Positions 46,175 to 61,777 of a DNA stretch of 64,000 nt are shown here, piece after piece. Made by a program: the position numbers and the translations under genes. This DNA comes from an uncultured Mitsuokella sp. Its GTDB lineage: Bacteria > Bacillota > Negativicutes > Selenomonadales > Selenomonadaceae. The stretch is taken from assembly GCA_945873115.1 (NCBI GenBank), contig CAMCBT010000002.1, forward strand, positions 1-64,000, given 5' to 3'. Position 1 is the stretch's first letter, and every line of letters starts with the position of its first letter. The notes under the pieces are model-generated. The model had not been told where the DNA came from. It did no database searches and saw only the letters and a program-made list of their open reading frames with translations.

Positions 46175-46320
46175 ATAGGAACTCATCCAGAGCAGTGGAG
46201 GGACTGGCCCTGTGAAGCTGCGGCAACCATTGACTTCGTCAAAACGGTGCCAATTCCTTTAGGCATAGGCCTATAAGATGAGAGTATAAAAGAGGCTCTC
46301 ATTGAGAGCTGTTTTTTTGT
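46175..46320 (+). promoter_or_regulatory. SAM-I (S-box) riboswitch with terminator, upstream of metK
   Basis: The conserved S-box core is present: CTCATCCAGAGCAGTGGAGG (from 46182), GGCCCTGTGAAGCTGCGGCAACC, GGTGCCAATTCC and the closing GATGAG (46277-46282) that pairs with CTCATC as P1. A terminator GCTCTC-ATT-GAGAGC (46295-46309) plus TGTTTTTTT follows; its 5' arm can pair with GATGAGAG as antiterminator. Known behaviour: SAM binding stabilises P1 and favours termination, so metK is shut down when SAM is plentiful. Confidence 0.95.
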
Positions 46321-55911: not shown

Positions 55912-55959
55912 TAATCCAGAGGTATTTCCTGTCGTCTGGTGTATGAAAAGGAAGCATTT

Positions 55960-56112
55960 CCTAGCGCATGAGCTTCTATGGAAGCTGACGAGGAGAAGGT
56001 TGTCGAATTTTCAGCGGATGCCTTCCGGCGGGCCCAGTCGATAGGGATGGGGGAAAACGCTCGCGCAAGCGGGCGGACAAGACCATCTCAGGGCGCGGCA
56101 GGAGAAGAACAC
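55960..56112 (+). ncRNA. glmS: glmS ribozyme-riboswitch
   Basis: The leader has the conserved glmS ribozyme core: CTAGCGCATGAGCTTC, GAAGCTGACGAGGAGAAGG, TTGTCGAATTTTCAGCGGATG and CCTTCCGGC, followed by a P3/P4-like GC-rich section (GCGGGCGGACAAGACC). The self-cleavage site should be between A55963 and G55964. Known mechanism: glucosamine-6-phosphate acts as cofactor for cleavage, the RNA is then degraded and glmS expression falls. The exact 3' border is approximate. Confidence 0.92.
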
Positions 56113-56124
56113 AGGAGGTTTCCT

Positions 56125-57954
56125 ATGTGCGGTATTGTTGGCTATGTAGGCGATAATCAGGCGGCTCCATTCCTGCTGGAGGGGCTCTCGAAGCTGGAGT
56201 ATCGCGGCTACGACTCGGCGGGCATCGCTGTCTTTGATGGCAAGGGCATCCGTGTGGAGAAGAGCGTGGGGCGCCTGGCGGCCCTCCGGGACAAGATAAA
56301 GGACAACATGCCCGTGGGCACCATCGGCATCGGCCATACCCGCTGGGCCACCCACGGCCGTCCGTCAGATCGGAATGCCCATCCTCATACGGACTGCTCG
56401 GGGGACTTCGTCATCGTCCACAACGGCATCATCGAGAACTATCTCTCCCTGAAGGAGGAGCTCATCGAGACCGGCCATGACTTCAAGAGCGAGACGGACA
56501 CCGAGGTGGTGGCACATCTCTTGGAGGAGGTCTACAATGGCGACTTTGTGTCCTCCGTCCGGGAAGTGCTGCGTCGCATCGAGGGCTCCTATTCCCTCGT
56601 CTTTATGAGCAAGAAGCACCCGGAGGAGCTCATCTGCACGAAGCAGGACAATCCGCTCGTCATCGGCATCGGGGAGGGGGAGAACTTCATCGCCTCCGAT
56701 ATCCCCGCCATCATCGCTCGCACTCGCCGCACCTACATCATGAATGACGGCGAGCTGGCCGTGGTGACGAAGGATGCCATCAAGATTACGAACCGGGCCG
56801 GCGAGCCGGTGACGAAGAAGGTCTTCGAGGTCAACTGGAATGCAGAGGCCGCGGAAAAGGGCGGCTATGAGCACTTCATGCTGAAGGAGATCCACGAGCA
56901 GCCGAAGGCTGTCCGGGATACCATGAGCCAGCGCATCGCAAAGGACGGCAAGTCCATCGTCATGAAGGAGCTCAAGTGGGATGCGGACTACCTGAACTCC
57001 TTCCGCAAGGTCCATATGGTGGCCTGCGGCACGGCTTATCATGCGGCCCTCGTGGGCAAGTTTTACATCGAGCGCCTGGCCCGCATCCCGGTGGAGGTGG
57101 ATGTGGCCTCCGAGTTCCGCTATCGCCAGCCCATCGTGGACGAGTCCACGCTCCTCATCGTCGTCTCCCAGTCCGGCGAGACAAGCGATACGCTGGCGGC
57201 CCTGAAGGAGTCGAAGCGCCTGGGGGCAAAGACCCTGGCCCTCACGAATGTGGTGGGCTCCTCCATCGCCCGGGAGGCGGATCAGGTGCTCTACACCTGG
57301 GCCGGCCCTGAGATTGCCGTGGCCTCCACGAAGGCCTATACGACCCAGATCATCCTCTTCTTCATGCTGGCCCTCTACATGGCAGAGCTCAAGGGCTCCC
57401 AGACCCCTGAGGCAGTGGAGTCCCTTATCGGAAAGCTCAAGGAGATCCCCGCCCAGATTGGCGAGACCCTCTCCGATGTGGAGCCCATCAAGACTTTTGC
57501 AAAGCAGTACGGCTTCAATGAGGATGTCTTCTACATTGGCCGATCCCTTGACTACGAGGTGGCCCTGGAGGGCGCCCTGAAGCTCAAGGAGATTTCCTAC
57601 ATCCACGCGGAGGCCTATGCGGCCGGCGAGCTGAAGCATGGCACCCTCGCCCTCATCGTGGAGGGCGTACCCGTCATCGCCCTTGCCACCCAGAAGAGCG
57701 TCTACGAGAAGACCCTCTCGAATATCAAGGAGGTCAAGGCCCGGGATGCCGTCGTCATCGGCATCGCCGCCCAGGGCAATACGGATCTTGAGAAGTATGT
57801 GGATCACGTCATCTACATCCCGAACACGGATGAGCTCCTCATCCCGATTCTCGCCGTGGTTCCCCTCCAGCTCCTTGCCTACTACGCCGCCATCACCCGT
57901 GGCTGCGATGTGGATAAGCCCCGCAACCTGGCAAAGTCTGTCACGGTGGAGTAA
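56125..57954 (+). CDS. glmS: Glutamine-fructose-6-phosphate aminotransferase (isomerizing)
   Basis: 609 residues; start 56125 with AGGAGG 7 bases upstream; Cys2 follows the initiator Met, as needed for the N-terminal nucleophile. Seen: CGIVGYVGD, GHTRWATHGRPSD, HNGIIENY in the glutaminase domain; two SIS domains with ACGTAYHAALVGK, VSQSGETSDTLAAL and SLDYEVALEGALKLKE; C-terminal KPRNLAKSVTVE with the isomerase Lys. First committed step to peptidoglycan and lipopolysaccharide amino sugars. Controlled by the ribozyme in its leader. Confidence 0.98.
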   Translation: MCGIVGYVGDNQAAPFLLEGLSKLEYRGYDSAGIAVFDGKGIRVEKSVGRLAALRDKIKDNMPVGTIGIGHTRWATHGRPSDRNAHPHTDCSGDFVIVHNGIIENYLSLKEELIETGHDFKSETDTEVVAHLLEEVYNGDFVSSVREVLRRIEGSYSLVFMSKKHPEELICTKQDNPLVIGIGEGENFIASDIPAIIARTRRTYIMNDGELAVVTKDAIKITNRAGEPVTKKVFEVNWNAEAAEKGGYEHFMLKEIHEQPKAVRDTMSQRIAKDGKSIVMKELKWDADYLNSFRKVHMVACGTAYHAALVGKFYIERLARIPVEVDVASEFRYRQPIVDESTLLIVVSQSGETSDTLAALKESKRLGAKTLALTNVVGSSIAREADQVLYTWAGPEIAVASTKAYTTQIILFFMLALYMAELKGSQTPEAVESLIGKLKEIPAQIGETLSDVEPIKTFAKQYGFNEDVFYIGRSLDYEVALEGALKLKEISYIHAEAYAAGELKHGTLALIVEGVPVIALATQKSVYEKTLSNIKEVKARDAVVIGIAAQGNTDLEKYVDHVIYIPNTDELLIPILAVVPLQLLAYYAAITRGCDVDKPRNLAKSVTVE

Positions 57955-60377: not shown

Positions 60378-60426
60378 TTTTTTGCTCTTTTGGGGATATG
60401 CTGGAAAGAATAGGCAGGTGAGGAAG

Positions 60427-60558
60427 ATGGACGACCACCCGAGTTTGTGGAACGGAAAACGAATGCAAGTATGTTCTTCCGGGGAGGCCCGTCTATCTTT
60501 CTGAAGAAAGACCTCTCCGGTTTGCGCGGAATAAGCCCCTCAAATCGGGGTTCTTTTC
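60427..60558 (+). promoter_or_regulatory. Candidate leader-peptide attenuator upstream of corA
   Basis: A 25-codon ORF at 60427-60504 (MDDHPSLWNGKR and MQVCSSGEARLSF) has AGGTGAGG 4 bases before its ATG. Its stop codon sits in the loop of a long stem: CCGGGGAGG/CCTCTCCGG (60479-60487, 60512-60520) with inner TCTTTCT/AGAAAGA. A second GCCCC/GGGGT stem (60535-60551) followed by TCTTTTC resembles a terminator 25 bases before corA. Part of this may simply end guaA. Confidence 0.4.
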
Positions 60559-60582
60559 TGCAGCTCAGTCGAGGAGTCTTTT

Positions 60583-61536
60583 ATGCTGCAAATTTTTAAG
60601 TCCTTGGAGTCGGGCCCCCTGCAGGAGCTCTCTCTGAAGACCCTGGAAAAGGGCGCCTGGATCAACATCGTGGATCCGACACCCTACGAGCTGAAGGTTA
60701 TCAGCAATCTCACGGAGGTCGATCCCGACTTTTTGCGATCCGCACTGGATGATGAGGAGAGATCCCACACAGACGTGGAGGAGAACTCCGTCATGGTCCT
60801 GACGAATGTGCCGGTCTACCGGGGGGAGGACAGCTACGATGCCCTGCCGCTCGCCATCATTGTGACGGCGGACTACATCATAACCGTCTGTCTGGAGGAA
60901 ACACCCGTCATCACGGAGTTCAATGAGCGCACATCACGTCTTTTTCGCACCTTCAAGCGGACGAGGTTCCTCTTCCAGATTCTCTACAAGTCTGCCACCT
61001 ACTTCCTGCGGTATCTTCGCCAGATTTCGAAGCTCTCCGACGAGATCGAGGATCAGCTCCGCAATGACATGAAGAACAGCGAGATTCTCCGACTTCTGGA
61101 GCTCCAGAAGGGCCTGACGTACTTCAACGCGGCCTTGCGCTCCAATGGGGCTGTGCTCGATAAGCTCCTCAGGATGCGGACGAACAGCCAGATTACCCCG
61201 CTCCTCAAGGCCTATGAGGAGGATGAGGATCTTTTGGAGGATGTCATCATCGAGAATAAGCAAGCGAGGGAAATGGTGGAGATGTACAGCACGATTCTCT
61301 CCCGTATGGCAGATACCTTCTCCTCCATCATTTCCAACAACCTGAACTTGGTCATGAAGTTCCTGGCGGCCATGACGATTATCCTCGCCATTCCCACGGT
61401 GGTGTCCAGCTTCTTCGGCATGAATGTGCCCGTGCCCTTCGCGGAAAATGCCCATGGCTTTCTCTACGTCATGATGATTGCTTTCTCCATCAGCGGTTTC
61501 ATTGCCTATGTGCTCTGGAATCGCGATATGTTCTAA
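60583..61536 (+). CDS. corA: CorA-family magnesium/divalent cation transporter
   Basis: 317 residues. A cytoplasmic alpha/beta N-terminal domain (about 1-240), a long helix with many acidic residues (KAYEEDEDLLEDVIIEN) and two C-terminal helices. The signature YGMN/GMN appears as SFFGMNVPVPF at the end of TM1, followed by a short acidic loop (FAENAHG) and TM2, ending in the basic/aromatic WNRDMF. Forms a pentameric channel for Mg2+ (also Co2+, Ni2+). A complex non-coding leader precedes it. Confidence 0.93.
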   Translation: MLQIFKSLESGPLQELSLKTLEKGAWINIVDPTPYELKVISNLTEVDPDFLRSALDDEERSHTDVEENSVMVLTNVPVYRGEDSYDALPLAIIVTADYIITVCLEETPVITEFNERTSRLFRTFKRTRFLFQILYKSATYFLRYLRQISKLSDEIEDQLRNDMKNSEILRLLELQKGLTYFNAALRSNGAVLDKLLRMRTNSQITPLLKAYEEDEDLLEDVIIENKQAREMVEMYSTILSRMADTFSSIISNNLNLVMKFLAAMTIILAIPTVVSSFFGMNVPVPFAENAHGFLYVMMIAFSISGFIAYVLWNRDMF

Positions 61537-61552: not shown

Positions 61553-61777
61553 ATGCTAGCAGAGTCCCATCTGAAGACCGGTGTCATTTACGGCGACAAT
61601 GAGAATGGGGAGTATGTCTACATGCCCGCCAGCGAGGTGGGCGTAAAAAATCCCATCTGTGTCTATGAGGCAGATGGGCTGCGGGAGGATGTGGTTATGA
61701 AGGAGGCCCTGCGCCTCATCCAGGTGCGGAGTCTCCGGCCTACGAAGCATCCTCTATGGGGCGAGAGCTCCTGCTAG
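61553..61777 (+). CDS. Small protein of unknown function after corA
   Basis: 74 residues; GGGAGGT is 4 bases before the ATG at 61553. Sequence begins MLAESHLKTGVIYGDNENGE and has KEALRLIQVRSLRPTKHPLWG near the end. No membrane segment and no known family. The good ribosome-binding site and 16-base gap suggest cotranscription with corA. Confidence 0.6.
   Translation: MLAESHLKTGVIYGDNENGEYVYMPASEVGVKNPICVYEADGLREDVVMKEALRLIQVRSLRPTKHPLWGESSC

Follow-up and report, generated by a model that had tools for sequence, protein, structure and literature searches.

The corA leader of a Mitsuokella-like member of the Selenomonadaceae is probably a peptide-coding attenuator, which would couple translation of corA to the passage of ribosomes through an acidic and proline-containing N-terminus. 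The window analyzed here, a DNA stretch of 64,000 nucleotides, carries upstream of corA a short ORF that is conserved under coding selection and whose relatives are found in association with both corA and M-boxes. The leader RNA is predicted to sequester the corA Shine-Dalgarno (SD) sequence and to release it upon refolding.

Genomic Context of the corA Leader

The source genome belongs to a Mitsuokella-like organism: its CorA shares 99% identity with the CorA of an uncultured Mitsuokella MAG and 89–92% with those of other Mitsuokella. The corA gene (positions 60583–61536; like guaA and the parts of the leader described below, on the forward strand) encodes a 317-aa divalent cation channel of the CorA family (PF01544, E 5.6e-49), in whose translation the GMN motif can be read. 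Against TIGR00383 the protein reaches 106.7 bits, under the cut-off of 200.75, and its Mg2+ specificity is therefore only putative. Profile searches of the window's genome gave one CorA match and no MgtE match, and a scan with Rfam covariance models found no M-box (RF00380) in the window's leader or in its genome; judged among CorA and MgtE transporters, corA may thus be the main Mg2+ importer of this genome. A 73-aa ORF without an NCBIfam match (61556–61777) follows 19 nt 3' of corA, possibly in the same operon.

The upstream neighbor is guaA, encoding GMP synthase (NF000848; 58842–60377, start approximate), whose end lies 49 nt from the ATG of the leader ORF. Neither the leader of the window nor that of its nearest relative (L032) has a clear promoter of its own; the window has a TATAAT match in five of six letters, located so that it overlaps the stop codon of guaA, and no good -35 element was seen by eye. 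TATAAT elements were found upstream of 50 of 57 leaders, as against 48% in base shuffles, an excess too weak for promoter conservation to be used as evidence, and this candidate was set aside. The leader and corA are presumably cotranscribed. Elsewhere in the window lie a SAM riboswitch (46180–46284; RF00162, 91.5 bits) and a glmS ribozyme/riboswitch (55952–56099; RF00234, 80.9 bits), the latter overlapped by an ORF listed from position 55978, so that the real start of glmS is probably near 56128.

A Leader Peptide Under Coding Selection

The ORF MDDHPSLWNGKRMQVCSSGEARLSF (60427–60504) comprises 25 codons and a TGA stop (60502–60504), is kept upstream of corA and is preceded by the SD region GGTGAGGAAG (60417–60426), which is conserved in relatives. 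Both the ORF and its ribosome binding site had been proposed in the initial annotation, which named a lack of ORF conservation as an outcome that would speak against it; the proposal stands, since the ORF is conserved. The 23-mer formed by the ribosome binding site, the ATG and the DDHP codons occurs once in the window at up to three mismatches, compared with no occurrence in 100 shuffles. When 81 genomes of the family were searched for the pattern at up to two mismatches, it was found in 26 places, all of them just upstream of corA (compared by eye), and a block made of the start codon, GAY, GRY and CACC is present in 42 of the 77 contig loci that carry corA relatives, the window's own copy (L002) not being counted.

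The D2, D3, H4 and P5 codons (60430–60441), a putative ribosome-destabilizing segment, show a pN/pS of 0.012 over 40 distinct ORFs; the underlying set retained 121 of the 124 motif-ORF loci (see below), with ORF starts limited to -300 to -80. Among 30 ORFs of the form MDDHP....PKR, pN/pS is 0.0 at PKR and 0.85 at codons 6–9. These low values at DDHP and PKR, set against that of the codons between them, indicate strong coding selection on the N-terminus and an almost free linker; the C-terminal half of the leader peptides varies freely. Further loci have MDGDHP or MDADHP, i.e., a frame-keeping insertion of a whole codon, and two leaders (L061 and L063) start with GTG in place of ATG. Judging from these sequence patterns, the 25-codon ORF encodes a leader peptide on which coding selection acts, and the combination of this selection with the SD suggests that the ORF is translated.

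The synonymous codon choice is constrained as well. Histidine is encoded by CAC in 40 of 40 ORFs, proline by CCT in 36 of 40, and serine at codon 6 by AGT in 19 of 21, while the Arg codon R12 (60460–60462) is CGA in all 31 distinct PKR-bearing relatives, even though CGA accounts for only three of 94 Arg codons in four genes of the window, where CCT and AGT are also rare. The strong retention of the rare codons CGA, CCT and AGT could reflect slow decoding or a nucleotide-level constraint. An RNA-only element (a riboswitch or thermosensor), or else a free-standing small protein, with the ORF or the switch being incidental, would account for the structure of the leader (z -2.86; see below) and for the constrained third positions at CAC and CCT in the start region. 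Either reading is nonetheless very improbable given that DDHP and PKR undergo synonymous changes and almost no amino-acid changes, that start codons are swapped and insertions keep the frame, and that the window leader has no Rfam match; the freely variable C-terminal half, in turn, is unlike a folded protein.

Distribution of the Leader ORF and Association With M-Boxes

The leader ORF was sought more widely as an SD-preceded ORF of 10–60 codons with Asp or Glu at position 2 and Pro within positions 3–7. Such motif ORFs precede corA in 59 of 75 loci of Selenomonadaceae, 30 of 59 of other Negativicutes and 35 of 87 of other Bacillota, whereas dinucleotide shuffles of the three groups yield 5.1, 3.3 and 4.7%, respectively. 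As the shuffle rate implies, some chance ORFs are left in these lists (e.g., L263 and L085); two loci were dropped from the scan, L091 for having less than 120 nt upstream and L203 because no CorA start was found. The N-termini include MDVDRPS, MDADHPS, MDGDPSK, MDGSPSP, MDDPGTS and MEGDPGS. The motif ORF is absent from 16 of the 75 Selenomonadaceae loci, i.e., within the window's own family, and inspection by eye places among the loci without it a Quinella MAG and its neighbors as well as a sizeable share of the other Negativicutes. Two peculiarities in the corA copies were noticed: the MAG JAQYBD01 (SUG1706) carries corA on two contigs (L034 and L102) with two differing leader copies, suggesting a strain mixture or a duplication, and at G137:C20:3440-5244 a second, broken corA-like gene with an internal stop directly adjoins an intact corA.

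Upstream regions of mgtE were rejected as a negative control, since in other Bacillota acidic/Pro SD-preceded short ORFs occur in 10 of 29 of these loci (29 of 30 being used), or in four of 29 if only ATG starts are counted. TrkH upstream regions were taken instead, and here the motif ORF is found in one of 30, with none starting with ATG. Examples of the mgtE leader ORFs are MDPSPLPSSKKL and MDSGPEGGLFKR, from a group of loci that comprises L273 (from about position 470 onward), L278, L280, L281, L282 and L288; in L273 the ORF is preceded by an M-box.

Among 16 relatives scanned with Rfam, the M-box is the sole family matched in a corA leader. Taking the Rfam scans together (16 and 60 loci), 15 of the 76 loci have an M-box immediately before corA, and 13 of them contain, between the M-box and corA, an SD-preceded ORF that begins with M-D or M-E. 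This tandem arrangement in the sequences points to Mg2+ as the signal. In the window leader, which the initial annotation had correctly described as devoid of M-box landmarks, no match attains the gathering score of any Rfam family; weak matches (E up to 10) were to eukaryotic lncRNAs or far below the cut-off and were taken as chance.

The same leader and switch could, in principle, answer to another signal, such as proline supply or charged tRNA-Pro, EF-P status, or slow decoding of the rare codons CGA, AGT and CCT. P5 is conserved and P10 is present in many leaders, these codons are kept despite their rarity, and the proline-responsive mgtP of Salmonella offers a precedent (PMC3641672). Yet the leaders usually contain one or two prolines and never runs of them, and the acid at position 2 is steadier than the proline, some relatives keeping the former and lacking the latter (MDSDGDSS in L139 and MDSGDSR in L144). 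As the tandem with M-boxes likewise favors Mg2+, we regard a different signal as unlikely.

A Predicted Switch Between Alternative RNA Folds

The region 60406–60600 folds better than its shuffles (z -2.86, with two of 200 as good); for the longer region 60378–60600 the corresponding values are z -1.51 and 13 of 200. Four arms can be delineated. Arm 1, AGGAAGATGGACG (60421–60433), includes the leader SD and start codon and pairs over 13 bp with positions 60490–60502 of arm 2, which forms the end of the leader ORF (60479–60502). Arm 3, GAAAGACCTCTCCGG (60506–60520), can pair either with arm 2 or, by about 60506–60518, with arm 4, the corA SD (GAGGAG) and its flank (60569–60581, limits approximate), which it is predicted to sequester. 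The 2:3 hairpin (60479–60520, 15 bp) consists of an outer stem of CCGGGGAGG (60479–60487) with CCTCTCCGG (60512–60520) and an inner stem of TCTTTC (60496–60501) with GAAAGA (60506–60511), and has the leader TGA inside its TGAA loop. According to the folding model, the combination of 1:2 and 3:4 would hide the corA SD and 2:3 would free it. The hairpin in whose loop the ORF ends, a strong hairpin also in the initial annotation, is present, and it is the predicted ON form, not an OFF form. A model in which the free RNA is ON failed, the corA SD being mostly paired in free RNA, and the four-arm model took its place.

For 106 of 122 leaders, the energy needed to open the corA SD was computed in three states: free of ribosomes (N), with arm 1 masked (E) and with a ribosome standing at the leader stop (S). 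The same was done for 424 nulls with a shuffled middle, four per leader; in the other leaders no SD was found, there was overlap, the spacing exceeded 110 nt or too little upstream sequence was available. In state N the mean cost is 6.2, 7.3 and 6.7 kcal/mol in Selenomonadaceae, other Negativicutes and other Bacillota, compared with 3.0, 4.4 and 3.2 kcal/mol in the nulls. Covering arm 1 lowers these means to 4.5, 4.1 and 3.8 kcal/mol, whereas those of the nulls rise slightly to 3.6, 5.1 and 4.0 kcal/mol. The cost drops by at least 2 kcal/mol in 19 of 56, 19 of 30 and 12 of 20 leaders of the respective groups and in 1–4% of the nulls; overall, 50 of 106 leaders show such relief, the window included (6.6 kcal/mol in N and 1.6 kcal/mol in E), and 56 of 106 stay below 2 kcal/mol. 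In state S only the other Negativicutes, with a mean of 6.7 kcal/mol, match a simple attenuator. Re-closure of the SD with a ribosome at the stop is absent from the window (2.0 kcal/mol), and the Selenomonadaceae mean of 4.5 kcal/mol is the same as in E; in the window, the leader stop lies so near arm 3 that a ribosome terminating there would cover this arm too.

Simple alignment covariation was abandoned for too little variation, RNAalifold on ten close leaders giving one pair with changes on both sides, and a swap test was used instead, with the leaders thinned to 34 of 56, 27 of 30 and 18 of 20 in the three groups. Mean self-pairing beats swaps between species for all three helices, as exemplified by 2:3 in Selenomonadaceae (-26.1 within and -19.6 between species). 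The support for helix covariation is moderate, since the self-pair falls among the top 10% of its swaps in only 10–17 of 34, 6–11 of 27 and 3–5 of 18 leaders, depending on the helix.

The initial annotation had also placed a terminator-like stem before corA. A hairpin with a weak T run is indeed present (60533–60552; terminator-like site at 60534–60552), with the stem AGCCCC-TCAAATC-GGGGTT followed by CTTTTC, but the stem is weak and the 3.5-kb region holds nine such sites, as against 2.7 +/- 2.0 in shuffles, so that by itself it means little. If 60533–60552 were an intrinsic terminator switched by leader translation, or a read-through terminator of guaA, control would be exerted by transcription attenuation, in agreement with the position of the leader 49 nt past guaA and with L032 having, at the corresponding position, a hairpin that differs in sequence. 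This is rather improbable: the T run is short and broken, most relatives have, by eye, no T-run hairpin between leader and corA and an arm 3 that faces the SD directly, and the hairpin fits within the 3:4 loop. Termination as the main output was consequently demoted to an alternative, and within the folding model the structure is better read as a hairpin that the 3:4 loop encloses.

Proposed Mechanism and Comparison With Known Leaders

Under a peptide-coding attenuator, a leader without a ribosome would form 1:2, leaving arm 3 to hold the corA SD in arm 4, and corA would be OFF. A ribosome initiating, stalling or aborting at MDDHP would cover arm 1 and leave arm 2 free to capture arm 3, which would open the corA SD and turn expression ON, whereas a ribosome reaching the stop would occupy arm 2 and allow 3:4 to reform, returning corA to OFF. 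By analogy with MgtL and MgtQ, low Mg2+ would destabilize ribosomes on the acidic/Pro stretch and thus switch CorA on; we infer both this ribosome abortion and the direction of control. Since the predicted folds hide the corA SD, as in mgtQ-mgtB, control is more likely to act on translation than on transcription. The initial comparison with an MgtL-type leader-peptide attenuator gains support from the coding conservation and breadth of the ORF, its weak terminator probably not being the main output.

The closest parallel is mgtQ-mgtB of Salmonella, described in PMC8092293 as a translation-aborting uORF of eight codons within the mgtC-mgtB region of enterobacteria. Shared with it are a short SD-preceded ORF with an acidic second residue and a proline near its start, located after another gene and upstream of a Mg2+ transporter, as well as, by prediction here, the mutually exclusive 1:2 plus 3:4 and 2:3 topology with the transporter RBS in 3:4 (PMC8092293). 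That source has mgtQ translation opening the mgtB RBS at the level of translation, the output proposed here for corA, and reports that the acidic codons of mgtQ mattered and the Pro codon did not (PMC8092293). The mgtQ-mgtB transporter is a P-type ATPase, whereas the present leaders belong to Bacillota and precede corA, in some cases following an M-box; they mostly have 25–35 codons and, by eye, no likeness to mgtQ beyond acid and Pro. For mgtL-mgtA of E. coli and Salmonella, PMC11282234 describes an N-terminal acidic/Pro EPDP motif that causes intrinsic ribosome destabilization, and similar N-termini occur in relatives here (MEGDPGS, MDGDPSK and MEADPK); mgtL acts through Rho-dependent transcription termination (PMC11282234), whereas the output predicted here is access to the corA SD.

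Another uORF precedes corA itself in Salmonella and E. coli, namely corL, whose leader also adopts two alternative folds (PMC11552253; PMC6429828) and whose translation is inversely related to corA expression (PMC11552253). As characterized there, corL and the "corA motif" belong to Gammaproteobacteria and differ in being Rho-dependent, with a UUG start and few acidic or Pro residues (PMC11552253; PMC6429828). In the pe20 operon of Mycobacterium tuberculosis, an M-box is followed by the conserved, translated uORF2 (Rv1805A), with an N-terminal proline and SD/anti-SD competition; the uORF is under the control of that M-box, and its peptide is described as mycobacteria-specific (PMC12810186). 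Unlike uORF2, the uORFs described here mostly lack an M-box and lie directly before corA. We propose that the leader works like mgtQ and mgtL, by analogy, and claim no homology to them, to corL or to the gammaproteobacterial corA motif. A search of the open-access literature found no description of a leader peptide for corA from Bacillota, and "corA" does not appear in the main texts of two large ncRNA surveys (PMC11109978; PMC8632094).

Implications

In the literature found, Mg2+ sensing through ribosome destabilization by an acidic/proline nascent chain has so far been enterobacterial (mgtL and mgtQ), and corA is often regarded as constitutive. There is about an even chance that acidic/proline Mg2+-sensing leader peptides form a phylum-wide layer of Bacillota regulation, acting on corA and mgtE through SD sequestration, that some of them are stacked behind an M-box as a two-input Mg2+ gate that combines riboswitch and ribosome, and that in Selenomonadaceae, mostly without an M-box, the ribosome is the main Mg2+ sensor for corA. 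If true, the same logic before corA across Bacillota, partly beside M-boxes, would represent a widespread sensing principle, and the many natural leader sequences would be available for testing which residues destabilize the ribosome. A route by which anaerobic gut bacteria can regulate corA would be revealed as well.
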